From assembly GCA_015069485.1 (NCBI GenBank), contig SVIM01000008.1:1-57040 (forward strand): DNA of 57,040 bases. The letters are read 5' to 3'. The stretch is from Clostridiales bacterium (lineage in GTDB: Bacteria; Bacillota; Clostridia; Christensenellales; Borkfalkiaceae). The stretch's first letter is position 1. Each line of letters opens with the position of its first letter. The notes below the pieces were generated by a model that worked only from the letters and a program-made list of their open reading frames with translations, was not told the origin of the DNA and did no database searches. The position numbers and the translations under genes are program-made. Below, piece by piece: positions 14,101 to 29,250 of this stretch.

Positions 14101-14145
14101 AAAAAAGCCCGACGAGCATTTTTGCTCGTCGGGCTTAAATTTTTA
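14101..14145. terminator. Bidirectional terminator between rarA and the VanZ-type gene
   Basis: A 14-bp perfect stem AAGCCCGACGAGCA with a four-T loop (14105-14136), then AAATTTTTAT; T-rich on the other strand as well. Confidence 0.92.
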
Positions 14146-14152
14146 TAATAAC

Positions 14153-16048
14153 TTATTCGTCGTCCGTTTGGTCAGCTTGGCTCTTTTTAATTTTAATGCC
14201 TTTAATGCGCCTAATTTTTTTAAGCTTTTGCTCGCTTTTAGCCCTTTCTTCTTCACGGGCTGCCCTTTCCGCTTGCAAAATTTTCTCTTCTTCCAAACGC
14301 TTACTTTCTTCCAGCTGTCGCGCTTCTTCCAAAGCCCGTTGCTTTTCCAGCTCTTCAGCCTCGTATAACTGCTTGGCTTCCTCTAAAAGCCTCGCTTCCT
14401 CTAAAACCTTGGCTTCACGCTTCTTTCTGGCTTTTTCTTCACGCTTTTCCAGCTGTTTTTTCTTTTGTTCTTGCTTTTTTAAGCGTTCTTTGGTTTTTGC
14501 TCGCTTTTTTAAAACGATATTAAATTGCATAAATATTGCAATAATAATGCCCGTTACGTAGCCAGTAAGGTCTATTAAAATATCTAAGGTAACGCTCGAT
14601 CTTCCGGGTATAAACTGTTGAATAATTTCGGTAATTGCCCCAAGAGAAATTCCCACGGAAGCGCAAATAAATGCCGAAAGTAATTTGCTTTTAATTTCGT
14701 GGTGCTTTAAAAAGAAAATTATAAGCAGGCCTTCAATTAAAAACATACCCATATGTCCAAAAATTTTACCTGCGTATTGCGCCCAGTCCTTATACGAAAG
14801 CCCTTGTTGCTCCGCGTTAATAACCAAATCCACGCTAACGCTTTGCACGCCGTCGTCAATCACGACCCTCAAATCAAAAACACCCGGCTTTAGCGCTTTA
14901 ACGCTCCAAGCGTTTTTCCCGGTATTATAAACGTAAAGCTCCTCGCTGGAGTACTCAAATTTCATTATCTTATAAGTGCACTCTTCAGGGAATAAAAAGT
15001 TAACAAGCTTTGCGCTATTTACAATAACCTCAATTTGTCCGTCTTGGTTAAACTGGTCTTCAAAAACGGTGGGCGCTTTAACAACGTTTTCTACGGTTGC
15101 AAAGCTATCAAAAGTAAATCCGTTTGGAAGGGTAACGGTAAACTCTACCCTGCCCGCTTTTTTAAATTTTATGTAATTTAATTTTGTAACGCTACCAAAG
15201 CTTTCGTCCTTTAGCTTAATTTCAAAATCAGTATAAACCCTTTTGCCCCCGTTATATAGGTAAACTACGGCAGTTTCGTTATACCTAAAAACGCTTCTGC
15301 CCTCTGCAATTTGCTTTGAGGTAGAAAGCTTAACCTCGTCAATTTGGGTAACTTCTTCCCTTTCGGGTAGTATTTCAACGGAGTAATAACTTTCGTCACC
15401 GTTTTTAAGTCTTGCGGTAATAGTGGCGTTTTCCGTTTCCTTCAAGGGTAAAAGCTTGCCTTCGCCAACCGTTTTAAAATATTCTTCATCAAAAAGGTAT
15501 TCAACCTCCGTTTCTGAATATGAATTAGTGGCGGAAGTAAACGAGGTGGTTAAATAAATAGGTAGGTTTACGAACGCAACGCCCTTTTTCGTCAGCGTCG
15601 GGCCGGTGGCGGTAACTGAAAATTGATTAGGGTAAACGGTGTAAAAATCAAGGGTTATAACCTTTTCAAAGTCAATATCGTTTTCGCTGGTTATTAAAAT
15701 TTTTCCAACTGCGTGCTCGCCGTCAAACGGCTTAGAACGAAATCCACCCGTATTGTTTAAAACCAAAGTATCGGGCGTAAGGTTTTCAAATTGTAGGGTT
15801 ACCTTTTTATTTGAATCGGTTACGGTAGTGTAAGTAGGATAATAAGTTTTTTCTTTAACTAAAATTTCCGGCAAGCCCTCAACGGTAACGTCGGTAATAT
15901 TTGCCCTAGTAAACAAACTTTTTATATACGGAAAAGTCTTTTGGTAAATATTGCTTGCTATACTCGTCCCAAACGATAGCGTAAAAACTAATATTATCGA
16001 CCAGCCTATTAAAAGCCAAGTCGAAAGAACTTTTTTAAACTTCGTCAC
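14153..16048 (-). CDS. VanZ-type membrane protein with extracellular domain and charged coiled-coil tail
   Basis: 631 residues. Order: N-terminal membrane segment (about 10-30); a 390-residue beta-rich extracellular part with Ig-like strands but no clear BIG2 consensus; a VanZ-like membrane domain (about 425-512) starting GKIFGHMGMF and containing TEIIQQFIPGRSS (from 473) and DILIDLTGYVTG; then about 100 residues of Lys/Glu/Arg/Leu-rich coiled coil predicted to face the cytoplasm. VanZ domains are linked to teicoplanin resistance but their function is unknown. The GTG start at 16048 has AAGGTG five bases upstream. It lies 13 bases after the nitroreductase gene. The protein at 23856 has the same plan. 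Function unknown; envelope anchoring or scaffolding is a guess. Confidence 0.75.
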   Translation of the reverse strand: MTKFKKVLSTWLLIGWSIILVFTLSFGTSIASNIYQKTFPYIKSLFTRANITDVTVEGLPEILVKEKTYYPTYTTVTDSNKKVTLQFENLTPDTLVLNNTGGFRSKPFDGEHAVGKILITSENDIDFEKVITLDFYTVYPNQFSVTATGPTLTKKGVAFVNLPIYLTTSFTSATNSYSETEVEYLFDEEYFKTVGEGKLLPLKETENATITARLKNGDESYYSVEILPEREEVTQIDEVKLSTSKQIAEGRSVFRYNETAVVYLYNGGKRVYTDFEIKLKDESFGSVTKLNYIKFKKAGRVEFTVTLPNGFTFDSFATVENVVKAPTVFEDQFNQDGQIEVIVNSAKLVNFLFPEECTYKIMKFEYSSEELYVYNTGKNAWSVKALKPGVFDLRVVIDDGVQSVSVDLVINAEQQGLSYKDWAQYAGKIFGHMGMFLIEGLLIIFFLKHHEIKSKLLSAFICASVGISLGAITEIIQQFIPGRSSVTLDILIDLTGYVTGIIIAIFMQFNIVLKKRAKTKERLKKQEQKKKQLEKREEKARKKREAKVLEEARLLEEAKQLYEAEELEKQRALEEARQLEESKRLEEEKILQAERAAREEERAKSEQKLKKIRRIKGIKIKKSQADQTDDE

Positions 16049-16061
16049 AAAAACACCTTAA

Positions 16062-16598
16062 TTATTCTTTAATAAGCTCAAAAATTTTATCAAAGTCCTT
16101 GCGCGCCTTTTTGCGAATAACCGCGCCTTCTTCAGCGTATCCAATAGCGATAATCAACGGGAATTTACTGCCATCAGGTAAATTCAAATACTCGGCAATT
16201 CCCTTTTCGTCACGCATACCCAAAATGCAGGTTTGAAGCCCTAAATCCTCTGCTGCTAAAACCAAATGGGCGGCAAGAATACCTATGTCGTTCCCTACGA
16301 AGTCGGATTTAAGCATAGCCTGTCCAATCCTTTCGGGTAAAACTGCCTTTTCTTGCTTAATAACTATAAATGCAGGGCAAGTATCAGCCCAACCGTTTAT
16401 GCCGGAAATTTTAACGAACTTTGCAAAGCCCTTTGCCTTTTTACCGTTTAATGCAATCATCTTCCAAGGCTGTGAATTGCAAGCAGAAGGCGCAAGCGAC
16501 GCCAAGCTACACACCTTTACTAAAAGTTCGTCGTCTACGGGCTTGTCTTCGTATTTTCTCGTGCTTTGTCTTTTTAAAAAAAGCTGTTCAATATTCAT
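16062..16598 (-). CDS. Nitroreductase-family FMN oxidoreductase
   Basis: 178 residues. FMN-binding pattern: RQSTRKYEDKPV at the N-terminus, LAPSACNSQPWKMIAL, and the later IGYAEEGAVIRKKARKDFDK typical of the family C-terminus. Many anaerobe relatives reduce nitroaromatics, quinones or flavin; the physiological electron acceptor is unknown. The ATG at 16598 with GAGAG upstream is chosen over the in-frame TTG at 16610, which lies within that purine run. The VanZ-type gene follows 13 bases later and is probably in the same transcript. The gap to tkt (110 bases) contains an inverted repeat that may end the tkt transcript. Confidence 0.88.
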   Translation of the reverse strand: MNIEQLFLKRQSTRKYEDKPVDDELLVKVCSLASLAPSACNSQPWKMIALNGKKAKGFAKFVKISGINGWADTCPAFIVIKQEKAVLPERIGQAMLKSDFVGNDIGILAAHLVLAAEDLGLQTCILGMRDEKGIAEYLNLPDGSKFPLIIAIGYAEEGAVIRKKARKDFDKIFELIKE

Positions 16599-16657
16599 AA
16601 TAACTCTCAAACATTATTTATTTGCCACATATTATGGCACTAATTTAAACTTAACCG

Positions 16658-16690
16658 CAAAATTCGGCGGCGTTTTGCCACCGAATTTCT
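16658..16690 (-). terminator. Probable terminator between tkt and nitroreductase
   Basis: Minus-strand stem AAATTCGGTGGC/GCCGCCGAATTT (one G-T pair) with loop AAAAC, followed only by a short TTTT, so it may be partial. Confidence 0.45.
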
Positions 16691-16708
16691 TAAGTAAGGT
16701 AATAATTC

Positions 16709-18691
16709 TTATTTTCTATTTCTTGCTTTTTCTATCGAAATTTTTGCCTTTGCAGCAATATTTTCTTTAGTAAAGCCAAAGTGTACAAAAAGTTGGCTTG
16801 CAGGTGCAGATAAGCCGAAATCCTTCATTGCAACTATTTCACCGTATTCGCCTGCGTATTTGTACCAAGAGTAGTGTGAAGCTGCTTCTACGCAAACTCT
16901 TGCCTTAACGCTTGAAGGAAGAACGGATTCTTTATACTGCTCGCTCTGCTGTTCAAACGCTTCAATCGAAGGCATCGAAACAACTCTAACCTTAATTTTA
17001 TCCTTTTCCAACAGTTCTTTCGCTTGCATACAGGTTTCTACTTCAGAGCCTGTACCAATTAAAATAACTTCGGGCTTTTTGCAGTCGGCTAAAACGTACG
17101 CGCCCTTTTGTGCTTCTAAACTGCTCTTTTCAAATTGAGGAAGGTTTTGTCTGGAAAGAACGATAACGGTAGGGGTTTTTTCAGTCAATGCAGAAATATA
17201 AGCCGCCGCCGTTTCCTTGCCGTCGCAGGGACGGAATACCTTAAGGTTGGGGATGGAACGGAGAGCGATAAGCTGTTCAATGGGCTGGTGAGTCATACCG
17301 TCTTCGCCAACGCCGATACTGTCGTGCGTCATAACGTAAATAACGGGCAAGCCCATAATTGCGCTCATTCTAATACCGCCCTTCATATAGTCGGAGAAGG
17401 AGAAGAAGGTCGAGCATAACGCGTGTAAACCGCCGTGCAACTGAATACCGTTACAAATAGCCGCCATAGCGTGTTCGCGAATACCAAAGTGGATGTTGCA
17501 TCCCGTTCTGTCCTCGGGGCAGAAATATCCTTTGCCCTTAAGCTCAGTTTTAGTAGAGGGAGCAAGGTCAGCCGAGCCGGACATAATGTTGGGCATAACC
17601 TTTGCAATTTTATTTAAAATAATACCGCCGGAGGAACGGGTAGCGTCTGCCTTTTCAAAGGTGGTAAGACCTTCGATTTTAGAAAAATCAGGCGCTTCGT
17701 TTGCCATATACTGCTTATATTTTTGTGCAAGCTCGGGGTATTCCTTTTCGTATTTAGCAAAAAGCGCGTTCCACTCAAGCTCTTTTTCAGCCTTTCTGTC
17801 TGCAATTCTTTGGCAAAGAGCCTTAACGTCTGCGGGCACTTCAAAGGGTTCTTCCGTCCAATTAAAGAACTCTTTAGTTTTTGCAAGATTATCAACGCCC
17901 AAGGGTGCGCCGTGGGAATCTGCGCTATCAGCAAGGGGAGAGCCGTATCCAATGTGGGACTGGCAAATAATTATGGAAGGTCTTTCCAAATCAGCCTTAG
18001 CCCTTTCAATTGCTGCGCGAAGCTTAATAAGGTTGTTTGCGTCGTCAACCTTTATAACCTGCCAGCCCTGCGCGCAGAATCTCGAAGCAACGTCTTCGCT
18101 AAAAGTAGAATTAATATTGCCTTCAATGGTAATATCGTTTTTATCGTAGAATAATATAAGCTTACCAAGCTTTTGCGTACCTGCAAAGGAGCACGCTTCG
18201 TAGCCAATACCTTCTTCCAAGCAGCCTTCACCGCATAATGCGTAGGTGTAGTGATCAACTACGGGGAAATCGGGCTTATTAAATACTGCCGCAAGATGAG
18301 CTTCGGCAACGGCAAAGCCAACGGCGTTGCCAATACCCTGACCTAAGGGGCCGGTAGAAACTTCTACGCCGTCCGTTTTACCAACTTCGGGGTGACCGGG
18401 GGTTCTAGAGCCGAACTGACGGAAATTCATTAAATCTTCTTTCGTTACGTCGTAGCCGAAAAGGTGCAATAGCGTGTATAAAAGCATTGAACCGTGGCCG
18501 GCAGATAAAACGAATCTGTCGCGGTTATCCCACTTGGGATTTTTATAACTGAAATTTAAATGCTCTGCAAATAATTCATACGCAATGGGTGCAGCGCCAA
18601 TGCAGATTCCGGGGTGGCCGGAGTTTGCCTTTTGTATTGCTTCTGCCGATATAATTCTAACGGTATTTACGGCTTTGTTATGAACGGACAT
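16709..18691 (-). CDS. tkt: Transketolase
   Basis: 660 residues, a complete fused enzyme. The first domain has SGHPGICIGAAP, LSAGHGSMLLY and TGPLGQGIGNAVG, with the ThDP motif GEGCLEEG..N. The pyrimidine domain has GSADLAPS, FGIREHAMAAICNG and THDSIGVGEDGMTHQP, with the catalytic Glu in REH. Reaction: reversible two-carbon transfer between pentose, triose, tetrose and hexose phosphates (ThDP, Mg2+). It supplies erythrose-4-P for DAHP synthase at 9082. TAAGGAGAAACGAATATG gives a strong ribosome site. The gene follows the hexose phosphomutase by 12 bases and is almost certainly cotranscribed with it. Confidence 0.97.
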   Translation of the reverse strand: MSVHNKAVNTVRIISAEAIQKANSGHPGICIGAAPIAYELFAEHLNFSYKNPKWDNRDRFVLSAGHGSMLLYTLLHLFGYDVTKEDLMNFRQFGSRTPGHPEVGKTDGVEVSTGPLGQGIGNAVGFAVAEAHLAAVFNKPDFPVVDHYTYALCGEGCLEEGIGYEACSFAGTQKLGKLILFYDKNDITIEGNINSTFSEDVASRFCAQGWQVIKVDDANNLIKLRAAIERAKADLERPSIIICQSHIGYGSPLADSADSHGAPLGVDNLAKTKEFFNWTEEPFEVPADVKALCQRIADRKAEKELEWNALFAKYEKEYPELAQKYKQYMANEAPDFSKIEGLTTFEKADATRSSGGIILNKIAKVMPNIMSGSADLAPSTKTELKGKGYFCPEDRTGCNIHFGIREHAMAAICNGIQLHGGLHALCSTFFSFSDYMKGGIRMSAIMGLPVIYVMTHDSIGVGEDGMTHQPIEQLIALRSIPNLKVFRPCDGKETAAAYISALTEKTPTVIVLSRQNLPQFEKSSLEAQKGAYVLADCKKPEVILIGTGSEVETCMQAKELLEKDKIKVRVVSMPSIEAFEQQSEQYKESVLPSSVKARVCVEAASHYSWYKYAGEYGEIVAMKDFGLSAPASQLFVHFGFTKENIAAKAKISIEKARNRK

Positions 18692-18703
18692 ATTCGTTTC
18701 TCC

Positions 18704-20218
18704 TTATTCGTTTATATAAGATTTTATTTTTATGGCATTTAAAAAGGTGTAACCCTTTAATAAATCGTAAAGCTTTTGTGCAATAACCTTCGTTCCGCCC
18801 ACGCTGTCGCTTTCAATATTAATGGGCATAATAGGGTCGTGCACACTCATTCTAACAAGCGCCCAGCCGTTTCCTACGGTATCGTCGAAATTAATTCTAA
18901 CTCCTTCGTAGTTATCGTTTGCAAGGGTTAAATGCTCGTCGCGGACAACCGCTTTTTTAATATCTTCAATAACCAGCGCTCCAAGTAATTTAAAGTCGCA
19001 GCCTTTATCAAAGTTCAATCTAATTTCAACTTCTTCTTCGGCTTCGTGTAAGTCTTTAATAAGGTCGAATAAATTTTCGCCCTTTTTAGCTTGCTCTGCA
19101 AAGCCTATAAGTATTCTCGTAACAAGGTAAGCACCGTCGTCTAAAAAGTAATTTTCCTTTAAGGCGGCGTGGCCGGAGGTTTCGATAGCGAGGGGAGAAT
19201 ATTCTCCGCTTTCGTTAAGCTCTACGCTCTTTCCAATAACGTTTTTATAACCGCGCTTAAATCTTAAGTGCTTTCCGCCGTGCTCTTTAATAAATTTAGC
19301 AAGCCCGTCGCTCGTTACCGAGTCGGTTACGATAGTGCCCTGCTTTTCCTTTAAAAGTATTGCGGAAATAAGCGCGATAAGCTTGTTGCGGTTTACTTCC
19401 TTTCCGTCGGGGTCAACTACTGCAGCCCTATCCACGTCGGTATCAAAAATAATTCCAAGGTCGGCTTTATTTTTTATTACGGCGTCGCAAATAGCCTTCA
19501 TTGCAACCTTGTCTTCGGGGTTGGGGATATGGTTAGGGAAGCTTCCGTCGGGTTGTAAAAACTGGCTTCCTTCGGTGTCTGCTCCTAACGGAATAAGCAC
19601 CTTTTCCACAAAAAATCCGCCCGCTCCGTTTCCTGCGTCAACTATAATCCTTTTGCCTAAAAGGGGCTTTTCACCGCACGCCGAGGTTACCTTGCTTACT
19701 AAATCAGCGCAGTACTCGTCAATAAAGCTCTTTTCTTCATAGCTTCCGTTACCGCTTAAAAATTCGCCCTTTTCGGCAATATGCAAAAGCTCGGTAATGT
19801 CGCTACTTTCCAGTCCGCCTTCGGGTGTAAAAAATTTAAGCCCGTTGCGGTTAAAGGGAAGGTGGGAAGCGGTTATCATAATGCTTGCGTCACAGTCCCA
19901 TCCGCCGTTTTTTAAAAGCATAAACATAGAGGGGGTGGAAGAAAGCCCCGTATAAACGAGGTCGCACCCGCTTTCTTGGCAGGCCGTTTTAACCGCCCCT
20001 AAAATTCGGGGTGCAGAAAGGCGCGAATCGTTGCCAACGGCAATTTTAATTTTGTCCTTTCCAATTCTTTCCGCTTGCATCTTTAAAAATGCTTTTACAA
20101 TATAAATTATGGCTTCGTCGGTAAGGTTTACGCTTTCGCCTTCAACGCCTTCAAGCGCAACGCCCCTTACGTCCGTACCACTTTTAAGTTTTAAAAAATC
20201 AATTTTACACATAATCAT
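18704..20218 (-). CDS. Phosphomannomutase/phosphoglucomutase (alpha-D-phosphohexomutase)
   Basis: 504 residues. The phosphoserine loop is TASHLPFNRNG (S118), the Mg2+ loop DTDVDR near 260, and the sugar-binding loop ETSGHAALKE. These fit the PMM/PGM group rather than GlmM (whose loop is SASHNP). It interconverts hexose-1- and -6-phosphates for glycan precursors. The gene has two possible starts, ATG 20218 and ATG 20212, and neither has a ribosome site. A TTGAAT-17-TATAAT promoter ends only four bases before the first ATG, so the mRNA is predicted to be leaderless or nearly so. tkt follows 12 bases later. Confidence 0.9.
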   Translation of the reverse strand: MIMCKIDFLKLKSGTDVRGVALEGVEGESVNLTDEAIIYIVKAFLKMQAERIGKDKIKIAVGNDSRLSAPRILGAVKTACQESGCDLVYTGLSSTPSMFMLLKNGGWDCDASIMITASHLPFNRNGLKFFTPEGGLESSDITELLHIAEKGEFLSGNGSYEEKSFIDEYCADLVSKVTSACGEKPLLGKRIIVDAGNGAGGFFVEKVLIPLGADTEGSQFLQPDGSFPNHIPNPEDKVAMKAICDAVIKNKADLGIIFDTDVDRAAVVDPDGKEVNRNKLIALISAILLKEKQGTIVTDSVTSDGLAKFIKEHGGKHLRFKRGYKNVIGKSVELNESGEYSPLAIETSGHAALKENYFLDDGAYLVTRILIGFAEQAKKGENLFDLIKDLHEAEEEVEIRLNFDKGCDFKLLGALVIEDIKKAVVRDEHLTLANDNYEGVRINFDDTVGNGWALVRMSVHDPIMPINIESDSVGGTKVIAQKLYDLLKGYTFLNAIKIKSYINE

Positions 20219-20222
20219 AAAT

Positions 20223-20251
20223 ATTATACAATATTTAGTGGTTCAATTCAA
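20223..20251 (-). promoter_or_regulatory. Promoter overlapping the phosphomutase start
   Basis: TTGAAT (20251-20246), 17 bases, TATAAT (20228-20223). The -10 box ends four bases before ATG 20218 and ten before ATG 20212. Confidence 0.65.
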
Positions 20252-20380
20252 GTGTTTAAACACAAAAATAATGCAGTTTTTTTAAAATAAAAAAATTAAA
20301 CGGTAAATTTTTTTCAAAAAAGTAAAATAAACCCAGCATTATGCTATAAAATAACACAATTTGGCATAAAGTATCAAAAA

Positions 20381-20396
20381 ACACAATATATTGTGT
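20381..20396. promoter_or_regulatory. 16-bp perfect palindrome upstream of the pfl promoter (candidate operator)
   Basis: ACACAATATATTGTGT is its own reverse complement. Its centre is about 82 bases upstream of the predicted pfl transcription start (near 20471). A further half-site ACACAAT occurs at 20354-20360. No known consensus is matched exactly. Confidence 0.5.
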
Positions 20397-20435
20397 CGAT
20401 AAAAAAATACTTAATACAATATTTTGATTTTTCTA

Positions 20436-20464
20436 TTGACAAAATAATAATGTTTTGCTATAAT
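20436..20464 (+). promoter_or_regulatory. Consensus sigma-A promoter of pflA-pflB
   Basis: TTGACA (20436-20441), 17 bases, TATAAT (20459-20464): perfect in both boxes and spacing. Confidence 0.93.
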
Positions 20465-20477
20465 AAAGTCAAATAAA

Positions 20478-20560
20478 AAGCTCGCCGTAACTGACGAATT
20501 TTTGCGAATTGACGCAAGGGAACGGCAAGTCAGCTTAAAAGTCGTTCGTCTGGGCAGTTT
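20478..20560 (+). promoter_or_regulatory. ZTP (pfl motif) riboswitch
   Basis: CTCGCCGTAACTGACG, a TTGCG/CGCAA hairpin, GGGAACGGC, GTCAG and finally CGTCTGGGCAG match the order of conserved pieces of the pfl/ZTP RNA, whose 3' part is usually CCGCCTGGGC. Location before pflA-pflB is the context that named the motif. The 3' CTGGGCAG also forms the left arm of a terminator, so ligand (ZTP/ZMP) would be expected to prevent termination. Confidence 0.85.
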
Positions 20561-20592
20561 TATTTTTAAAACGGCTCTTTTTGTTTTTTAAT
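20552..20592 (+). terminator. ZTP riboswitch expression-platform terminator
   Basis: GGGCAGTTTTA pairs with TAAAACGGCTC (one mismatch, one wobble), followed by TTTTTGTTTTTT. The left arm is shared with the aptamer. Confidence 0.85.
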
Positions 20593-20638
20593 TAAAAGGG
20601 CTTTAACGGCAAAAAAAATCGTCTTTTTTAAGGGTGTT

Positions 20639-21355
20639 ATGGTAGGATATATTCATTCGTTCGAATCTTTTGGTACGGTAGACGGTCCCGGTATTCGCTT
20701 CGTCGTTTTTATGCAGGGCTGTCCTATGCGTTGTCTATATTGCCACAACCCCGATACTTGGGCGTTAAACTGCGGAAAGCAATACTCTGCAGAAGAAGTT
20801 GCAAAAACCGCGCTTAAATATAAAAGCTACATTTCAAACGGTGGTGGCGTAACCGTTTCGGGCGGTGAGCCTTTACTTCAAGCAGAATTTATTACGAGCC
20901 TTTTTAAAATTTTAAAAGAAAACGGCGTCCACACGGCGATAGATACTTCCGGTATAACCTATAGCGAAGCGAATAAAGAGCAAATAGAAGGTCTTTTAAA
21001 ATATACCGATTTAGTTATAGTTGATATAAAGCATATCGACGAAAATGAGCATAAAAGGCTAACCGGGCGTTCAAACAAAAATGTTTTGAATTTCGTTCAA
21101 AAATTAAGCGATATGGGAAAAGATATGTGGATTAGGCACGTACTCGTTCCCGAAATTACCGATAACGACGAATATTTACAAAAGCTTTCCGCTTTTATTA
21201 AAACCTTAAAAACCGTTAAAAGGGTAGAAGTTTTGCCCTACCACACTATGGGCGAGGTCAAATACGAAAGGTTGGGGTTAGATTACGCCCTTAAAGGCGT
21301 TTTGCCCCCCACGGAGGATAGGGTTTTAAACGCAAAAAAAATTTTAAATATATAA
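20639..21355 (+). CDS. pflA: Pyruvate formate-lyase activating enzyme (radical SAM)
   Basis: 238 residues. The radical SAM cluster motif is C28-x3-C32-x2-C35 in GCPMRCLYCHNPDTW, identical in form to PflA. A GGEPLLQ SAM-binding strand and VLPYHTMG near the C-terminus are also typical. It installs the glycyl radical on PflB using SAM and a [4Fe-4S] cluster under anoxia. The ATG at 20639 has a modest AAGGGTG ribosome site. The pflB gene follows after 60 bases; the order pflA-pflB is reversed compared with E. coli. Expression is predicted to depend on the ZTP riboswitch and the upstream palindrome. Confidence 0.95.
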   Translation: MVGYIHSFESFGTVDGPGIRFVVFMQGCPMRCLYCHNPDTWALNCGKQYSAEEVAKTALKYKSYISNGGGVTVSGGEPLLQAEFITSLFKILKENGVHTAIDTSGITYSEANKEQIEGLLKYTDLVIVDIKHIDENEHKRLTGRSNKNVLNFVQKLSDMGKDMWIRHVLVPEITDNDEYLQKLSAFIKTLKTVKRVEVLPYHTMGEVKYERLGLDYALKGVLPPTEDRVLNAKKILNI

Positions 21356-21415
21356 GTTTAAAAGCATTAAGTTTTTTAAATTACACAAGATAAATCGTAT
21401 TAAAAGGAGAAAATT

Positions 21416-23674
21416 ATGTTTTACGATGCATGGAAGGGCTTTGTGCCCGGTAAATGGAGCAACGACGAGGTTGACGTAAGAGATTTTATTCAACTTAACT
21501 ATACCCCCTACGAAGGTGAGGGTGATTTCCTTGCGCCCGCAACCGAAGATACGAAAATCCTTTGGGAGCAAATTTTAAAGCTAACCGAAGAAGAGCGTCA
21601 AGCAGGCGGCGTATTAAACGCTGATACTTATATTATTTCCACCTTAACCAGCCACGGCGCAGGTTATTTAGATAAAGAAAGGGAAAAAATCGTAGGCTTG
21701 CAAACGGACAAGCCCTTTAAGCGTGCCTTACATCCCTTTGGCGGAATTAAAATGGCAGAGCAAGCAATTAACGCTTACGGCTACGAGCTTCACCCCGACG
21801 TACGCGACGTATTTATAAAATACCGCAAAACGCATAACGACGGCGTGTACGACGCGTACACCCCCGAAATGCGCAGGGCAAGAAGAGCGCACATTTTAAC
21901 CGGTCTTCCCGATACTTACGGCAGGGGCAGAATTATCGGCGACTACAGAAGAGTTGCTTTGTACGGCATTGACTATTTAGTAGCGCAAAAGGAAAAGGAT
22001 AAGGATATTATCGACGGCGAAATGATTCCCGAAAGAATTAAAGCAAGGGAAGAAGTTGCCGACCAAATTAAAGCCTTAAAGTCGTTAAAGCTTATGGCTT
22101 CCTATTACGGCAAAGATATTTCCAAGCCCGCAACCACCGCGCAGGAAGCAATTCAAGCCTTATATTTTGGCTATCTCGGCGCAATTAAAGATCAAAACGG
22201 CGCAGCTATGTCTATCGGCAGAAACACCGCCTTCCTCGATATTTATATTCAGCGTGATATTGAAAACGGAGTATTGACGGAAGAGGGCGCGCAAGAGCTT
22301 ATCGACCAATTTATTATGAAGCTACGCATCGTTAAGTTTATGCGTACTAAAGAATATAACAATCTTTTCTCGGGCGATCCCACTTGGGTTACCGAAGCTA
22401 TAGGCGGTATGGGTACGGACGGCAGAACGCTCGTAACTAAAACCTCCTTCCGCGTGCTTCACACTCTCGATAATTTAGGCCCTGCACCCGAACCTAACTT
22501 AACCGTATTATGGTCTAAAAATCTTCCCGAAGGCTTCAAGCGCTACTGTGCAAAGGCTTCTATAAAAACCTCTGCAATTCAGTACGAAAACGACGATTTA
22601 ATGCGTCCCGAAATGGGCGACGACTACGCTATTGCTTGTTGCGTAAGTTCTATGAGAGTGGGCAAGGATATGCAGCTTTTCGGCGCAAGAGCAAACCTTG
22701 CAAAATGTCTTTTATACGCTATAAATGGCGGTAAGGACGAAATGATAAAAGATAGGGAAACAGGCAAGGCTTTCCAGGTTTCCCCTGCATATATGCCCGT
22801 TTTAGGCGACGGTCCTTTAGATTATAACGACGTAATTAGCAAGTACGACAATATGATGACTTGGCTTGCAAAGCTTTACGTAAACGTATTAAATTTAATC
22901 CACTATATGCACGATAAATATAGCTACGAGGCGTTGGAAATGGCTCTTCACGATACAAACGTTCGCCGTTTCTTCGCAACCGGTATTGCAGGTCTTTCGT
23001 GTGCGGTTGACTCTCTTTCTGCAATTAAGTACGCAAAGGTTTACCCCATCCGTAACGAAGAGGGCTTGGTGGTAGATTATAAGGTGGAGGGTGACTTCCC
23101 TAAATACGGCAATAACGACGACAGGGTTGACGATATTGCAGTTTGGCTTGTAAAAACCTTTATGGAAAAAATCAAAAGCCACTACACTCACCGCAACAGC
23201 GTTCCTACTATGTCCATATTAACGATAACCTCTAACGTAGTTTACGGTAAAAACACGGGCAACACCCCCGACGGAAGAAGAGCAGGCGAGCCTTTAGCCC
23301 CCGGCGCTAACCCTATGCACGGTAGAGATACTAACGGCGCTTTAGCTTCGCTCGAATCCGTTGCAAAGCTTCCTTATCAGCACGCAAAGGACGGTATTTC
23401 CAATACCTTCTCCATAACCCCCAACTCTCTCGGCAAGGACGAAGCTTCACAGCAAACCAACCTTATCAATTTAATGGACGGCTATTGCAATAACGGCGGT
23501 TTCCACTTAAACGTAAACGTATTCAGTCGCGAAACGCTTTTAGACGCGCAAGCGCACCCTGAAAAATACCCTCAGCTCACCATAAGGGTTTCCGGCTATG
23601 CAGTAAACTTTAATAAGCTTACCAAGGAACAGCAGGATGACGTTATTTCGCGTACTATCCACGAATCATTTTAA
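21416..23674 (+). CDS. pflB: Formate C-acetyltransferase (pyruvate formate-lyase)
   Basis: 752 residues, close to E. coli PflB (760). Catalytic cysteines are C408-C409 in AIACCVSSM. The glycyl radical residue is G727 in [31 protein letters not shown] matches PFL rather than glycerol or choline lyases. Reaction: pyruvate plus CoA to acetyl-CoA and formate, the central anaerobic branch; formate feeds one-carbon folate metabolism, consistent with ZTP control. AAAAGGAGAAAATTATG is a strong ribosome site. Codon use is more biased than in the neighbours (many AAG, GAC, TTC), suggesting high expression. A terminator follows. Confidence 0.97.
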
Positions 23675-23731
23675 TTAACCACGGCTTACGGCAAACTAAT
23701 AAGCGTTTGGTAACAATAAAATAATATAATA

Positions 23732-23763
23732 CCGCCGACGGAAAAATCCGTCGGCGGCTTTTA
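23732..23763 (+). terminator. Intrinsic terminator of pflA-pflB
   Basis: Stem CCGCCGACGGA/TCCGTCGGCGG with loop AAAA, then CTTTTATT. Confidence 0.92.
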
Positions 23764-23797
23764 TTAAAAAACTTTTAATAAATTCTTTATTAAACTA

Positions 23798-23826
23798 TTT
23801 ACAACACACTAAAAATATCATATAAT
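23798..23826 (+). promoter_or_regulatory. Sigma-A promoter of the BIG2/VanZ gene
   Basis: TTTACA (23798-23803), 17 bases, TATAAT (23821-23826). Confidence 0.7.
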
Positions 23827-23855
23827 ATACTTACTATAAAAGGAAGAGATAAGGG

Positions 23856-26762
23856 ATGTTTAAGTTTTTAAAAGGAAAAACAAAATTTCAAATTTTTAGG
23901 TTTTTGTGCTTTATTGCATATTTAGGCTGTATTTTCGTGCTCGTTTTCGAAGCTTCCTTAAACGGCAAGCTTTCCGCTAACCAGTCAAATGCGGTAGGTG
24001 GCACTATTGCCAATACTTTTAACGATTTAAGTGGCGACCAAACCGTAGCCGTTTTACCGGAAGAAATCGTCGTTAGTAATAAAATAAGCGAGGCTAACGT
24101 GGGTGATAGCTACCAGCTTCAAACACAAACCTTGCCCGAAAATTCCACTTATAAATCCGTCGTATATTCATCATCAAACGAATCCGTTGCAACCGTTTCA
24201 AGTAGCGGTTTAATCGAGTTTCTTTCTGCCGGCGAAGCAACTATTACGGCAAGCAATCAGCATTTTTCAAGCGTGATAGATTCCTTTACCGTAACGGTTT
24301 CCAACGTCGAGGTTTCAGATATAACCTTAAGCGTTAACGCACAGCAGGAAAACGGCGTATATATCTTGGATTTAGACGTTAATAATTACGCCATATCCGC
24401 CACCGTATTGCCCGAAAACGCTACCGACCAAACCGTAACTTATTCTACTGATACAACCGCGTATATGTCGGTAAATTCCTACGGCGTGCTAACTCCTAAA
24501 AAGCACTCTAACGGCGAAGTAACTACCGTCGTCGTGTCTTCGGGTAGCATCCAAAAAGAACTTAAATTTATAGTAAAGGTAAACGAAATAGCGTTAACCT
24601 CCCTATCCGTTTCAAATCCCGTAAGCGAGGTATACGTTTCGCAAACCTATACCCCTACGGTATCGTTTACTCCCTCCGACGCAACCTATAAGGACTACAC
24701 CGTAACAAGCAGTAATACCTCCGTGCTTTCTATAAGCGGAAAGGGCGTAAAGGGCGTAAGCGCAGGTACGGCAACCGTTACCGTAACCTCCACCAAATAT
24801 CAAAACGTTTCTGCAAGCTTTGAAATAACGGTATTGCCTCAGCCGGAGGTAACCGATTTTAGCGCAAGGTTATCCTCGCAAGTAGTAATAGGCACTACCA
24901 ATAAAATCAGCATATCTAACGTAACGCCTAAGTATGCAAACCAAAGCACTATGAAATACCGTAGCCTTAACGAAGAAGTCGCAACCGTAAACGCGTCGGG
25001 TAGCGTAAAGGCGGTGGGCTTAGGTACTGCAACTATCGAAATTTACAGTAGCGTAAACAGCTTTTCAGTTAAAACGCTTACCGTAACGGTTATAGAAAGA
25101 GTGGTGGAAGAAGATCATACTACCGACTTTAGCGTTACCTATTTACAAGGCGAACGGCCCGTAATATTTACGAATTCTCCAATAAATTTACAAGAATATT
25201 TTATAGTAGAAAATTTCCAATTCACCGAAGGATATCCTACGACGAACAAGGCAATAACCTATTCCTTATCGGGCGAAAATTCCCAAAACGGAACGATATC
25301 CGGCAGTACCCTAACGGCTAGCGCAGCGGGCGCAATAGAAGTTACTATTACGCACACGGCGTCGCGAATTTCTAAAACGGTAAGCCTTTTTGTGCTAAAC
25401 GATTTCGATATAGAATTCGTACAAAGGACCGAAAGTTTCGTAGTCTTTGAAGAAAAAACCTTTGTAATATCTTCCCAGCAAGACGAGCTTCAAAATTATT
25501 TCGTAAGCGTTAATAGCCCTTCCGTTTCAATTAAAAATATTGACGGTGCTTACCATATATCTTCCGCTGAAGCGGGCGAATTTACAATTTGCGTAACCCC
25601 CGTCTATGACGGCGAGGAATATTCGCAAATGAGTAAAAGCTATAATATTTCAGTTGCTCACAACTTTGCAACCTCTATAATTTATACGGCTAATAACGAG
25701 CAGGAAAACCTTGAAATCGTGCTCGACGGCTCACCCTTAAACATTTACGTAAACGATAGCTTCGTAATTCATCCTACGGTAGATGCCGCTACGACTATAA
25801 CTAACTTTGAATATTTAAGTAGCGACGAGGAGGTGCTTACCGTAGAAGGCGGAAAAATTAACGTCGTCGGCATAGGTGAAGCAACAGTAACCGTTACGGA
25901 AAGCTATTCTGGTATTCAAACTCAAATTCAAATTATAATTAATAATAAAATAATTATTAACGAAAACAACGCGTTTACCTTAAAAGCCAACAACGTAAAC
26001 TTTGACAGCGAAAGTAATACCTATTCGTTAACCAACGGCTTTAGCGGAAAAATCACGGTAAACTTCGATAGCCAAAGCACCTTTAACACCGTCGTATATT
26101 CTACTAGCGACGACGAGATTATAAGTATAGGTCAAGACGGAACCTTAACTCCCCACAAGGAAGGAACGGCTACGCTTACGCTTGTTATCGACGACGGTAT
26201 GCAAGATGAAATAATTTTAGAAGTAACGGTTAAGGTAGAGCGTCAACCCTTAATTCAAAACTTAAGTGAATTTTTCTATCTCGTTCGCAAGGGCTTGGGG
26301 CACTTTGGCGCTTTCGCCGTTTTAGGTATTTTCTCCACCTTAACCTATATGCTTTATCTCGATAAGGCAAAGTGGCTATTCTCAATTCCCGTCAACTTTA
26401 TTTCCGGCTTCTACATAGCAATTTTAACCGAGCTTATTCAACGCTTCGTACCCGGCAGGTCCGGCGTTTGGAACGACGTAACTATCGATTTTTCAGGCTT
26501 CGTTATAGGAAGTATAATAACCGCAATAATAATCTTTATTTGTTATTTCGTAAGCTTTAGCAAAAGAAAACTGCACGAAAATAAAATTAAAAAAGAGCGT
26601 GACAGGGTAGCTTCCGAAAAGTTAGAGCAAGAGCGAAAGGAACAAAAAATTAAAGATTATTTAGAACAAGAAAGATTAGCCGAAGAGGAGCGTAATAAAA
26701 TTAAGCAAAGCTCTGTCGTAAAAATAAAAATGGCAGAAAAGGATAACGATAGCAAAAATTAA
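23856..26762 (+). CDS. BIG2-repeat VanZ-type membrane protein with charged tail
   Basis: 968 residues with the same plan as the protein at 14153-16048. It has an N-terminal membrane segment (about 12-33); then at least six Ig-like/BIG2 modules (about 65-150, 150-240, 245-330, 332-415, 610-690, 700-785), several with the BIG2 signature SSNESVATVSSSGLIEFLSA; then a VanZ-like domain (about 810-900) with RKGLGHFGAF, TELIQRFVPGRSG (from 858) and VTIDFSGFVIGS; then about 65 Lys/Glu-rich residues. The coiled-coil tail is shorter than in the sister protein while the outer part is longer. Single gene between two terminators. BIG2 domains occur in surface proteins and adhesins; the role of the VanZ part is unknown. 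Function not assigned. Confidence 0.78.
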   Translation: MFKFLKGKTKFQIFRFLCFIAYLGCIFVLVFEASLNGKLSANQSNAVGGTIANTFNDLSGDQTVAVLPEEIVVSNKISEANVGDSYQLQTQTLPENSTYKSVVYSSSNESVATVSSSGLIEFLSAGEATITASNQHFSSVIDSFTVTVSNVEVSDITLSVNAQQENGVYILDLDVNNYAISATVLPENATDQTVTYSTDTTAYMSVNSYGVLTPKKHSNGEVTTVVVSSGSIQKELKFIVKVNEIALTSLSVSNPVSEVYVSQTYTPTVSFTPSDATYKDYTVTSSNTSVLSISGKGVKGVSAGTATVTVTSTKYQNVSASFEITVLPQPEVTDFSARLSSQVVIGTTNKISISNVTPKYANQSTMKYRSLNEEVATVNASGSVKAVGLGTATIEIYSSVNSFSVKTLTVTVIERVVEEDHTTDFSVTYLQGERPVIFTNSPINLQEYFIVENFQFTEGYPTTNKAITYSLSGENSQNGTISGSTLTASAAGAIEVTITHTASRISKTVSLFVLNDFDIEFVQRTESFVVFEEKTFVISSQQDELQNYFVSVNSPSVSIKNIDGAYHISSAEAGEFTICVTPVYDGEEYSQMSKSYNISVAHNFATSIIYTANNEQENLEIVLDGSPLNIYVNDSFVIHPTVDAATTITNFEYLSSDEEVLTVEGGKINVVGIGEATVTVTESYSGIQTQIQIIINNKIIINENNAFTLKANNVNFDSESNTYSLTNGFSGKITVNFDSQSTFNTVVYSTSDDEIISIGQDGTLTPHKEGTATLTLVIDDGMQDEIILEVTVKVERQPLIQNLSEFFYLVRKGLGHFGAFAVLGIFSTLTYMLYLDKAKWLFSIPVNFISGFYIAILTELIQRFVPGRSGVWNDVTIDFSGFVIGSIITAIIIFICYFVSFSKRKLHENKIKKERDRVASEKLEQERKEQKIKDYLEQERLAEEERNKIKQSSVVKIKMAEKDNDSKN

Positions 26763-26777
26763 TAAAAATTAAAAATT

Positions 26778-26810
26778 TCTCGCTTACGGCTTTGTAAGCG
26801 AGATTTTTTT
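26778..26810 (+). terminator. Intrinsic terminator after the BIG2/VanZ gene
   Basis: Stem TCTCGCTTAC/GTAAGCGAGA, then TTTTTTT. Confidence 0.92.
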
Positions 26811-26914: not shown

Positions 26915-28423
26915 ATGGCAAAAATTTTAATTATAGGCGGTGGCGTTGCAGGGCTTTCTGCAGGCATATACGCGCAAATTGCAGGGCATAGCGCAACTAT
27001 ATGCGAGCGTCACTCAGTTGCAGGTGGAAACCTTACGGGATGGACGAGAAGGGGATATACAATCGATAACTGTATTCATTGGCTTACCGGTACTAACGCT
27101 TCTACGGACCTTTACAAAACCTGGTGCGATTTAGGCGCTTTGGAAAAAGTAAAGGTTTATTACGGCGAAAGCTTATACACCTACGAATACAACGGAAAAA
27201 CTCTTTCGCTTTATACTGATATCGAACGGGTTAAAAGCGAAATGATAAGCGTATCTAAAAAGGACGAAAAGGAAATTTTGCAATTTATAAAAGCCGTTAA
27301 AGCGATAATGGGCTTTATGGGCATAGGTGGCAAAAACAAAAGCTCAGGGCTCAACCTTTTTCAAAAAATCGCTTCGCTTCCCGAGCTTATAAAATATAAC
27401 GGTATTTCAACGGGGCAGCTTGCCGAACGCTTTTATCATCCGCTAATCCGCGGTTTTCTTATTTCCCTTTTAGGCACGGATTTTTCTGCAAGCGCCTTGC
27501 TTTGTGTGTTTGCCACCGTTTGCGGAAAAAACGGAGGCGTTCCGGAAGGCGGCTCAATGGCAATGGCACAGCGTATGGTAAGCAAATTCACTTCGCTCGG
27601 CGGCGAAATTTTAACGGGCAAGCAGGCTATAAAAATCAACTTAAAAAAGGGGGTAGCGCACTCCGTTGATTTTGCCGATAATACGCAATTGAGTGCCGAC
27701 TATGTCGTAATTACTACCGATCCGCAAATAGCGTTTAACCAGCTTTTAAGCAGCAAAATGCCAAGCTGTTTTTCAAGGCTTTATAATAATAAAAGCATGC
27801 AACGCTTTTCGGGCTATCATTGTGCGTTTGCCTGCGACAGTCAAAGGGTGCCGTTTAAGGGTGATTATATCTTTGATATTTCTGCGTTATACCGTACACG
27901 GCTTCATACGAACTATCTTATTTTGCGGGAATTTACTCACGAAAAAAGCTTTGCTCCACAAAACAGAACCGTTATTCAATCTATAACCTTTTGTAACGAA
28001 AGTGACGCCCGTCAGTTTATAGAGCTTAAAAAGGACGAGCTTTCCTACTATAATTTAAAGCGAAAAATCGCCGCCGACGTGCAGTATTTAATAGGGGAAA
28101 AATTCCCTCAGCTTAAAGGCAACCTACAATTTTTAGACGTGTGGACGCCTGCAACCTATAACCGTTATACGGGCGCAGAGGTGGGCTCGTTTATGAGCTT
28201 TTTATTGCCACCTAAAGCCATACCTAAAACTCTTCCAAACAAAGTTCCGGGTGCGCGTAACGTGTTTTTGGCAACCCAATGGCAACAAGCTCCGGGCGGA
28301 CTTCCCATTGCGGCAAAGGTTGGGCAATTAGCCGTACAATCCATTTTAAAAAGCGAAGCGCAAAAATCAAAAACCTTCTTTTTTCCACGCAAGCAAGCAA
28401 ACAAGGTGGGCGTGCAGGGTTAA
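26915..28423 (+). CDS. FAD-dependent oxidoreductase of the phytoene desaturase (CrtI) family
   Basis: 502 residues. The N-terminal dinucleotide-binding motif is ILIIGGGVAGLSAGIYAQ followed by the acidic CERHSVAGG. The second CrtI-like segment GGVPEGGSMAMAQRMVSKF lies near 210, and the C-terminal FAD motif is around VFLATQWQQAPGGLPIAAK. This places it in the phytoene desaturase/amine oxidase superfamily, members of which in gut anaerobes act on unknown substrates; no carotenoid genes are nearby, so a carotenoid function is not implied. TTAAGGAGAAGC precedes ATG 26915 by ten bases. It stands alone after a terminator; sigK follows 120 bases later. Confidence 0.8.
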   Translation: MAKILIIGGGVAGLSAGIYAQIAGHSATICERHSVAGGNLTGWTRRGYTIDNCIHWLTGTNASTDLYKTWCDLGALEKVKVYYGESLYTYEYNGKTLSLYTDIERVKSEMISVSKKDEKEILQFIKAVKAIMGFMGIGGKNKSSGLNLFQKIASLPELIKYNGISTGQLAERFYHPLIRGFLISLLGTDFSASALLCVFATVCGKNGGVPEGGSMAMAQRMVSKFTSLGGEILTGKQAIKINLKKGVAHSVDFADNTQLSADYVVITTDPQIAFNQLLSSKMPSCFSRLYNNKSMQRFSGYHCAFACDSQRVPFKGDYIFDISALYRTRLHTNYLILREFTHEKSFAPQNRTVIQSITFCNESDARQFIELKKDELSYYNLKRKIAADVQYLIGEKFPQLKGNLQFLDVWTPATYNRYTGAEVGSFMSFLLPPKAIPKTLPNKVPGARNVFLATQWQQAPGGLPIAAKVGQLAVQSILKSEAQKSKTFFFPRKQANKVGVQG

Positions 28424-28545: not shown

Positions 28546-29250
28546 ATGATTTTTGATTTTTTATCGCTACTTTTTAACAAAATCTTTTTGTTTACGGGTT
28601 TGGTGCAAAAAGGCGGCACCTTTCCCAATCCGCTTTCCGCCGAAGATGAAAAAAAGTATTTGGCTCTCGCTCAAAACGGGGATAAAGAGGCTAAAAATAT
28701 TTTAGTAAAGCACAATATGCGCCTCGTGGCTCACGTTGTAAAAAAGTATTCAGGCGCGGCAGAAACGGACGATTTAATGTCGGTGGGCTCTATCGGCTTA
28801 ATTAAGGCAATAAACACCTTTAAGGCGGGCAAGGGCACTCAGCTTGCTACCTACACCGCCCGTTGCATTGAAAACGAAATTTTAATGCTTATTCGCGCAA
28901 GCAAAAAGCACAAAAACACCGTTTCCTTGCAAGATACGATAGGGGTAGATAAGGACGGAAACGAGTTAACGCTAATCGACCTTTTAGCCGAAAAGGAGGA
29001 AAGCGTTTTTTCGCAGGTGGAAAAAAGTATTCAGCGCGAAAAATTCGTTAAGCTTTTAAGGGAAACCTTGTCCGAGCGTGAATTTTCTATCCTTTCAATG
29101 CGCTACGGGCTAATAGACGATATCGCCCTGCCCCAGCGCGAGGTTGCTAAAAAGCTTGGAATTTCCCGCTCGTATATTTCGCGAATTGAAAAAAGAGCAA
29201 TAGAAAAAGCAAGGGAAAGCCTTAATAAGCAAGATTTCTTTATCGATTAA
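28546..29250 (+). CDS. sigK: RNA polymerase sporulation sigma factor SigK, uninterrupted
   Basis: 234 residues, sigma-70 type. The first 20 residues are a hydrophobic pro-peptide (MIFDFLSLLFNKIFLFTGL), followed by GTFPNPLSAEDEKKYL, close to the processed start of SigK. Region 2 has HNMRLVAHVVKKY and DDLMSVGSIGLIKAINTF; region 4 ends with SRSYISRIEKRAIEKARE (helix-turn-helix). SigK directs late mother-cell genes (coat and cortex) and is activated by removal of the pro-peptide. The frame is intact, with no skin-type inserted element. The ribosome site is AAAGGGG. With ylbJ, this is good evidence for endospore formation. Confidence 0.92.
   Translation: MIFDFLSLLFNKIFLFTGLVQKGGTFPNPLSAEDEKKYLALAQNGDKEAKNILVKHNMRLVAHVVKKYSGAAETDDLMSVGSIGLIKAINTFKAGKGTQLATYTARCIENEILMLIRASKKHKNTVSLQDTIGVDKDGNELTLIDLLAEKEESVFSQVEKSIQREKFVKLLRETLSEREFSILSMRYGLIDDIALPQREVAKKLGISRSYISRIEKRAIEKARESLNKQDFFID

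Follow-up and report, generated by a model that had tools for sequence, protein, structure and literature searches.

How a long outer region and a charged tail are joined to a VanZ domain, and what they might do there, is the question raised by two genes in a 57,040-nucleotide stretch of a Clostridiales genome (positions 1 to 57,040 of contig SVIM01000008.1, assembly GCA_015069485.1; the whole stretch is called the window here). Classical VanZ proteins are short and are not known to carry a stalk or a charged helical tail. VanZ is a large membrane family without proven function, and it is described as of unknown function in PMC7146870.

Two intact long VanZ genes

The two genes lie on opposite strands, as the initial annotation had it, and are intact in the list of open reading frames (ORFs).

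14153..16048, minus strand: gene for a stalked VanZ protein of 631 residues, GTG start; PF04892 33.2 bits; model pLDDT 72.5, pTM 0.39
23856..26762, plus strand: gene for a stalked VanZ protein of 968 residues; PF04892 36.9 bits, Big_2 121 bits; model pLDDT 78.8, pTM 0.42

Both PF04892 (VanZ) scores exceed the cut-off of 30.1 bits, which upholds the family assignment proposed for them, and NCBIfam gives the same verdict as Pfam, with VanZ over the cut-off in both proteins. The Pfam matches are confined to profile positions 55-125 of 126, and the two motifs quoted at the outset are present in both proteins (TEIIQQFIPGRS / TELIQRFVPGRS and DILIDLTGYVTG / DVTIDFSGFVIG). Aligned with each other, the proteins share 28% identity over 215 residues (E 3e-16), a stretch that covers the VanZ domain and the tail and is of low complexity in its tail portion; this alignment indicates that they are homologous across VanZ plus tail.

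The genes between the pair encode a nitroreductase, a transketolase, a phosphoglucomutase/phosphomannomutase, a radical SAM protein (pflA-type) and PFL. The nitroreductase gene and the gene for the 631-residue protein are probably co-transcribed. The following elements adjoin the pair.

16062..16610, minus strand: nitroreductase gene, 13 bp upstream of the gene for the 631-residue protein
14105..14136, minus strand: terminator-like hairpin 3' of the gene for the 631-residue protein, two-way and common to a rarA/mgsA-type gene
23732..23757, plus strand: terminator-like hairpin separating pflB from the gene for the 968-residue protein
23798..23826, plus strand: promoter-like site (TTTACA-17-TATAAT, 11/12) about 30 bp 5' of the gene for the 968-residue protein, of a kind found in the region at close to the chance number (27 against 24.3 in shuffles)
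26778..26803, plus strand: terminator-like hairpin 3' of the gene for the 968-residue protein

A fusion or assembly artefact was ruled out by the intact ORFs, a window free of N, relatives with the same plan and window-like codon usage; both genes match the window's ORFs in codon usage and in GC3 (z -0.73 to 0.17).

Position of the Ig-like stalk in the VanZ domain

According to PMC12419801, the Lipocone core, VanZ included, consists of four helices (H1-H4). In both window proteins, hydropathy places one membrane segment before the outer region and three after it, and the AlphaFold2 models have one or more N-terminal helices, a beta stalk and then exactly three helices. The parts are listed below, with domain counts given as our reading of the modelled strands.

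15953..16033, minus strand: putative VanZ H1 of the 631-residue protein, residues 6-32, assigned from hydropathy, position and topology; model helices 2-24 and 28-47
14801..15904, minus strand: outer stalk of the 631-residue protein, residues 49-416, about four Ig-like beta sandwiches; model strands 51-413
14522..14794, minus strand: VanZ H2-H4 of the 631-residue protein, residues 419-509, with K..GH, E..Q, PGR and D...D (Pfam, alignments, model)
23877..24029, plus strand: VanZ H1 of the 968-residue protein (residues 8-33) and a helix at residues 37-58 with an S...G...S...S motif (held-out N-terminal profile; model)
24057..26243, plus strand: outer stalk of the 968-residue protein, residues 68-796, about eight Ig-like domains between H1 and H2 (Big_2; model strands 70-795; alignment with stalkless proteins)
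26262..26567, plus strand: VanZ H2-H4 of the 968-residue protein, residues 803-904, with RK..GH, E..Q, PGR and D...D (Pfam, alignments, model)

The outer region had been described as Ig/BIG2-like in both proteins. This stood for the 968-residue protein (Big_2 121 bits; cut-off 22.8), whereas the 631-residue protein has no Pfam family besides VanZ above the cut-off, Big_2 included. In the predicted model of the latter, VIA-align aligns the stalk to Big_2, S-layer, phage and filamin Ig domains, with fold-search matches spanning residues 49-416, and the predicted stalk also resembles a segment of Leptospira LigA. The outer region of the 631-residue protein is predicted from the model to fold as Ig-like domains. 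Its likeness to BIG2 and S-layer Ig domains (PF02368; SbsC, 7r3t) is one of predicted fold, and that of the 968-residue stalk to BIG2 (PF02368) is one of sequence; both window stalks differ from such domains in being held at both ends by membrane helices of one polytopic domain.

The initial annotation had placed an N-terminal membrane segment ahead of the outer region and the VanZ domain. Our analysis identifies this segment as H1 of VanZ, by sequence in the 968-residue protein and by position and topology in the 631-residue protein. A profile built from the N termini of 16 stalked relatives and 18 short VanZ proteins, with the window proteins left out, matched the N terminus of the 968-residue protein at 54.0 bits (E 3.4e-16), compared with 15.6 bits for the best of 495 control ORFs; the N terminus of the 631-residue protein is absent from the 36 matches listed for this profile. 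An earlier profile, built from the 18 short proteins only, picked up five stalked relatives (E 3e-6 to 7e-4) and gave the N terminus of the 968-residue protein 0.4 bits (E 16), with one control at 13.3 bits, and because of this poor score the link of the 968-residue protein to H1 goes via the relatives. The four core helices are accounted for in the 968-residue protein by the held-out profile and the three later helices, and in the 631-residue protein by position only.

With the N-terminal segment as H1, the outer region is not placed ahead of the VanZ domain but enclosed by it, and we regard it as nearly certain that the stalk is inserted in the outer loop between H1 and H2. The topology suggests that the N terminus is inside and the stalk outside, with H2-H4 returning and the charged helical tail inside; the positive-inside charge pattern fits a stalk outside and a tail inside. 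Given the low pTM values (0.39 and 0.42), the models say nothing on helix packing or on the direction of the stalk. Annotators should be aware that H1, cut off from the Pfam match, may look like a signal peptide or an anchor of its own.

Ig-VanZ fusions as such are already known: PMC12419801 describes the arrangements 'SP + X + TM + Lipocone' and 'Lipocone + TM + X', with Ig among the X domains, and these resemble the window proteins as single-gene systems with an Ig-type outer domain on VanZ. In those fusions, X is outside a complete four-helix core, whereas in the window proteins it lies inside the core, after H1; because only three membrane helices follow the stalk, the first helix is taken as part of the core and not as a signal peptide. 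In the literature searched, we found no published description of an Ig chain inside a VanZ core, of orthologues with and without such a chain at one syntenic place, of the RK..GH clade described below or of the charged tails; for the Ig chain inside VanZ, single proteins may already be listed in the supplementary tables of PMC12419801.

Stalkless relatives at the same loci

A scan of GTDB contigs gave 24 loci, among them proteins of 167-187 residues (L099, L100, L104, L105 and L112) that have the same N terminus and core without the Ig region. When held out, these five and L116, which is truncated by its contig end, gave N-terminal matches at E 3e-12 to 2e-8, and all share the core.

Among the order-level matches, two genera contain both forms: in genus g9, L153 (183 residues) aligns on both sides of a gap with L091, L090, L156, L157 and L093 (544-585 residues), and in genus g78, L158 (211 residues) does so with L155 (631 residues). 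When the locus that holds L153 (L218) is compared with L091, L219 and L220, IspG and an exonuclease-domain gene adjoin VanZ (55-74% identity), NrdR is common to L218 and L091 (79% identity) and identity between the VanZ genes is 51-56% across 103-121 residues. The locus that holds L158 (L217; its VanZ gene was read from L158, as an overlapping frame had been picked there) has five genes around the VanZ place in common with L216, at 60-93% identity. These comparisons indicate that stalked (544-631 residues) and stalkless (183-211 residues) forms are positional orthologues in two genera.

In a core tree of 49 rows of at least 350 residues and 26 shorter rows, the length label needs 8 changes (21.6 in shuffles), and well supported branches force at least 4 of these. 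Among the 'short' rows, at least two (L098 and L163) have no match at the N terminus and are probably truncated or broken, so that these counts are inflated and the case for stalk presence and absence rests on the two syntenic pairs. The pairs argue for regarding the stalk as a removable addition, which relatives have or lack at one genome place. Natural pairs with and without a stalk at one locus offer a handle on the role of the outer loop and on whether VanZ acts on wall precursors.

H2 spacing sets a VanZ-2-like clade apart

We compared 94 distinct cores, 49 of them from ORFs of at least 350 residues (the smallest of 498 residues, both window proteins among them). All 49 stalked and all 45 shorter cores have E..Q and, after it, R and D...[DN]. 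RK..GH is found in 47 of the 49 stalked cores (K..GH in 48) and in 12 of the 45 shorter ones, whereas the spacing R[KNDE]..H occurs in 0/49 and 20/45, respectively; ten of the 12 shorter K..GH forms have their own N-terminal match. D...D in H4 is present in 41/49 stalked cores, with DVTID and DILID in the window proteins, and the 631-residue copy has GK..GH, without the R of RK..GH. Across 21 cores, K, G-H, E, Q, G-R, D and G are invariant; across 16 cores, K, G-H, E, Q, R, D...D and G are. The residue patterns point to a VanZ-2-like clade that is distinguished by the H2 spacing RK..GH and has both stalked and stalkless members.

The published VanZ-2 motif in H2 is RKxxH (PMC12419801), whereas the clade has RKxxxH, one residue longer, and for this reason is assigned as VanZ-2-like. 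In the terms of PMC12419801, it shares with VanZ-2 the E in H3, K and H in H2 and D...D in H4, with DxxxD in both window proteins; an outer-facing pocket is predicted for the family, and the H1-H2 linker in VanZ forms a helical 'handle' to which the modelled helix after H1 is comparable. The window proteins differ from VanZ-2 by hundreds of Ig-domain residues in that linker. The VanZ-1 residues, Asn in H2 and DxDDxxxN in H4, are absent: both window proteins have His in H2 and D...D in H4. Classical glycopeptide-resistance VanZ belongs to the same Pfam family (PF04892; PMC7146870, PMC8744867), with five membrane segments reported (PMC8744867) and, according to PMC12419801, key residues that differ from those of the window proteins. 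No solved VanZ structure was found by sequence with profile A3, which gave four weak matches among solved structures (E 0.19-0.98), three of them V-ATPase subunit e chains and the fourth a phospholipid phosphatase.

The kept residues bear on an unlikely reading in which the protein is a surface adhesin or S-layer-like spacer, its Ig stalk serving adhesion or wall attachment and its VanZ part being only an unusual anchor. The likeness of the predicted stalk to S-layer domains and to the LigA segment would suit this, as would the wide length range of the 49 stalked ORFs (498-1316 residues). A mere anchor, however, would not need the predicted active-site residues that are kept in 49/49 stalked forms, and stalkless orthologues persist at the same loci.

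A third VanZ in the host genome (1.52 Mb, 97% complete) is a short protein matched at PF04892 positions 1-122 (L001; contig C8 of the same genome, 4176-4520). By eye it has Asn at the H2 position, which is VanZ-1-like, and the tree places it outside the clade of the window proteins. By eye, a subclade of stalked forms (L075, L081, L076, L161, L166 and L167) seems to have in common a short motif after H4 like S-x-K-T-x-F, unlike the window tails.

Charged tails

Each window protein ends in a tail that is modelled as one helix with H4.

14156..14521, minus strand: charged tail of the 631-residue protein, residues 510-631, helix to residue 609; 0.58 charged
26568..26759, plus strand: charged tail of the 968-residue protein, residues 905-968, helix to residue 949

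The description of these tails as charged coiled coils holds in part: they are highly charged and AlphaFold2 draws a long helix, but their heptad and salt-bridge patterns do not exceed those of shuffles (by apolar heptad score, our own simple measure, 784/2000 and 468/2000 shuffles were as high for the two tails). Long tails that are at least half charged occur in 2/49 stalked forms, the two window proteins only. Both tail ends (14160-14210; 26700-26762) have a similar short basic stretch, IKIK or VKIK, before an acidic tip, a likeness that may be due to chance in low-complexity sequence.

The initial annotation had guessed at a bridge between the surface and cytoplasmic machinery; working as a signal transducer, the stalk would sense the envelope and relay its state through the charged helix in the cytoplasm. 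The positive-inside pattern and the models, which put the stalk outside and the tail inside, would allow this, PMC12419801 reports VanZ proteins fused to cytoplasmic signalling domains and a sigma-70-type factor gene (28546-29250), a possible link, lies two genes downstream of the gene for the 968-residue protein, past the gene at 26915-28423. We nevertheless consider a bridge rather improbable: the nine neighbours scanned include no gene for a kinase or receptor, the heptad pattern of the tails does not rise above shuffles and, because long, at least half-charged tails are confined to 2/49 stalked forms, such a tail is not needed for the general function.

Distribution and origin of the two copies

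In a family sample, a VanZ (PF04892) frame of at least 500 residues is present in 27/150 other genomes, counted by frame length only; 2 of the 27 fall below the Pfam cut-off, and 16 of these genomes were read further. Profile A3 found frames of this length in 20/296 other genomes of an order sample, spread over five family codes (f1, f3, f16, f19 and f32), a count that leaves out G494 (567 residues, partial profile match). In the window's own genus, by contrast, there is a long VanZ frame in 0/92 other genomes (species), in a sample in which only 61/93 genomes reach 90% completeness with little contamination. In a phylum sample, 51/397 other genomes match at E 1e-8 with a longest frame of 245 residues, and stalked forms also occur on contigs titled Erysipelotrichaceae and Bacilli (L095 and L097). 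Long VanZ frames are widespread in the order, not rare, and the long, highly charged tails are the peculiar trait here.

Whether two copies always occur, a point raised with the initial annotation, has a mixed answer. Two copies are present on separate contigs in G107, G135 and G166, and in family f3 long VanZ genes with overlapping ends stand in tandem by a DapB-cluster gene in G459 (L224, 3143-6867) and G479 (L225, 4263-7744); among the 20 genomes searched through loci, however, only the window's had two. The core of the 968-residue protein is nearest to L096, L094, L098, L097 and L095 (at most 50% identity in the tree alignment; 48-50% in A3), the core of the 631-residue protein is a long branch of unsure placement, and a tree constrained to keep the two cores together has a p-AU of 0.21. 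The proposed origin of the pair by duplication is neither shown nor rejected by these sequence data.

The neighbours of the pair are genes of the genus: their best relatives among 40 other genomes are at 78% identity for transketolase and about 80% for PFL. In 20 genus loci, the mutase-transketolase pair is kept (9/9 transketolase loci; nitroreductase adjoining in 3), as is the pfl pair; what comes after these pairs varies, and no clean empty site is definable among the loci read. Because codon usage is host-like, there is no sign of a recent arrival, and recent horizontal arrival was rejected as without support from composition. The patchy distribution would fit an old transfer or repeated loss.

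That patchiness (0/92 other species of the genus) might also be expected of protection against membrane-anchored glycopeptide-like antibiotics or competitors' wall-targeting antimicrobials, of the kind that classical VanZ proteins provide, with a stalk that would shield or displace the drug. VanZ proteins lower teicoplanin binding (PMC7146870), and VanZ-2 genes too may be linked to VanY (PMC12419801). The VanZ of resistance operons is, however, treated as VanZ-1 in PMC12419801, whereas the window proteins have VanZ-2-like residues; there is no van gene among the nine neighbours scanned, and the host codon usage gives no sign of recent arrival. We judge drug protection very unlikely.

Proposed function

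The best explanation overall, which we hold at about an even chance, is a VanZ/Lipocone enzyme that would act on undecaprenyl-linked wall precursors in the outer leaflet and carry a wall-contacting stalk. For Lipocone proteins in general, PMC12419801 predicts action on phosphate-linked head groups of the outer leaflet; the targets it predicts for VanZ families are lipid-linked precursors of wall and glycan, and it takes outer domains fused to Lipocone as ligand-binding regulators. By analogy with these family predictions, the four-helix cone would act in the outer leaflet on undecaprenyl-linked precursors of wall or glycan, at their phosphate-linked head groups, and the stalk, starting beside the mouth of the pocket, would contact or span the wall and position or tune the enzyme. 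That the proteins are lipid-head-group enzymes could equally prove right or wrong; a role of the stalk as a wall-contacting regulator or spacer is possible and on balance doubtful.

A more specific version is a stalk-gated enzyme, in which wall contact or tension on the stalk would open or close access to the precursor, gating would appear with a stalk and vanish without one, and the two enzymes of the window's species would also couple it to a long cytoplasmic helix. We put this forward as a speculation with a small chance of being right. If true, control of an enzyme would have been switched on and off in evolution by gain or loss of a stalk at the same gene.

Gene neighbourhood across lineages

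We clustered the neighbours at 55 loci, retaining the VanZ gene in 52 and an overlapping frame in 3; one or two members of each neighbour cluster were scanned with Pfam and the rest joined by BLAST similarity. A MatE-type gene is near VanZ in 6/38 loci, DapB adjoins it in 4/55, and IspG and NrdR are near it in one genus (g9). These genes recur within lineages only, and none of them adjoins the window genes; by plain counts of recurrence, no common functional partner was seen across loci. At L107, L222 and L223, the long VanZ gene is preceded by two genes of about 275 residues; one of each such pair was scanned, giving a ParA-type ATPase at L107 and an AraC-type regulator at L223.

The PFL gene of the window (21416-23674) is a single gene of 752 residues. 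In the genus (41 genomes searched, its own included), 31 genomes have a match, and in 20 of these a stop interrupts it at about residue 676-689; one of the 20, G082, is matched over the whole length of PFL with two stops. In L194, L195 and L196, a separate ORF of 76 residues covers the end of PFL at 81-84% identity, and in L196 the Pfam Gly_radical match is divided between the 676-residue part (positions 2-48) and the 76-residue ORF (positions 53-106), that is, a split PFL.
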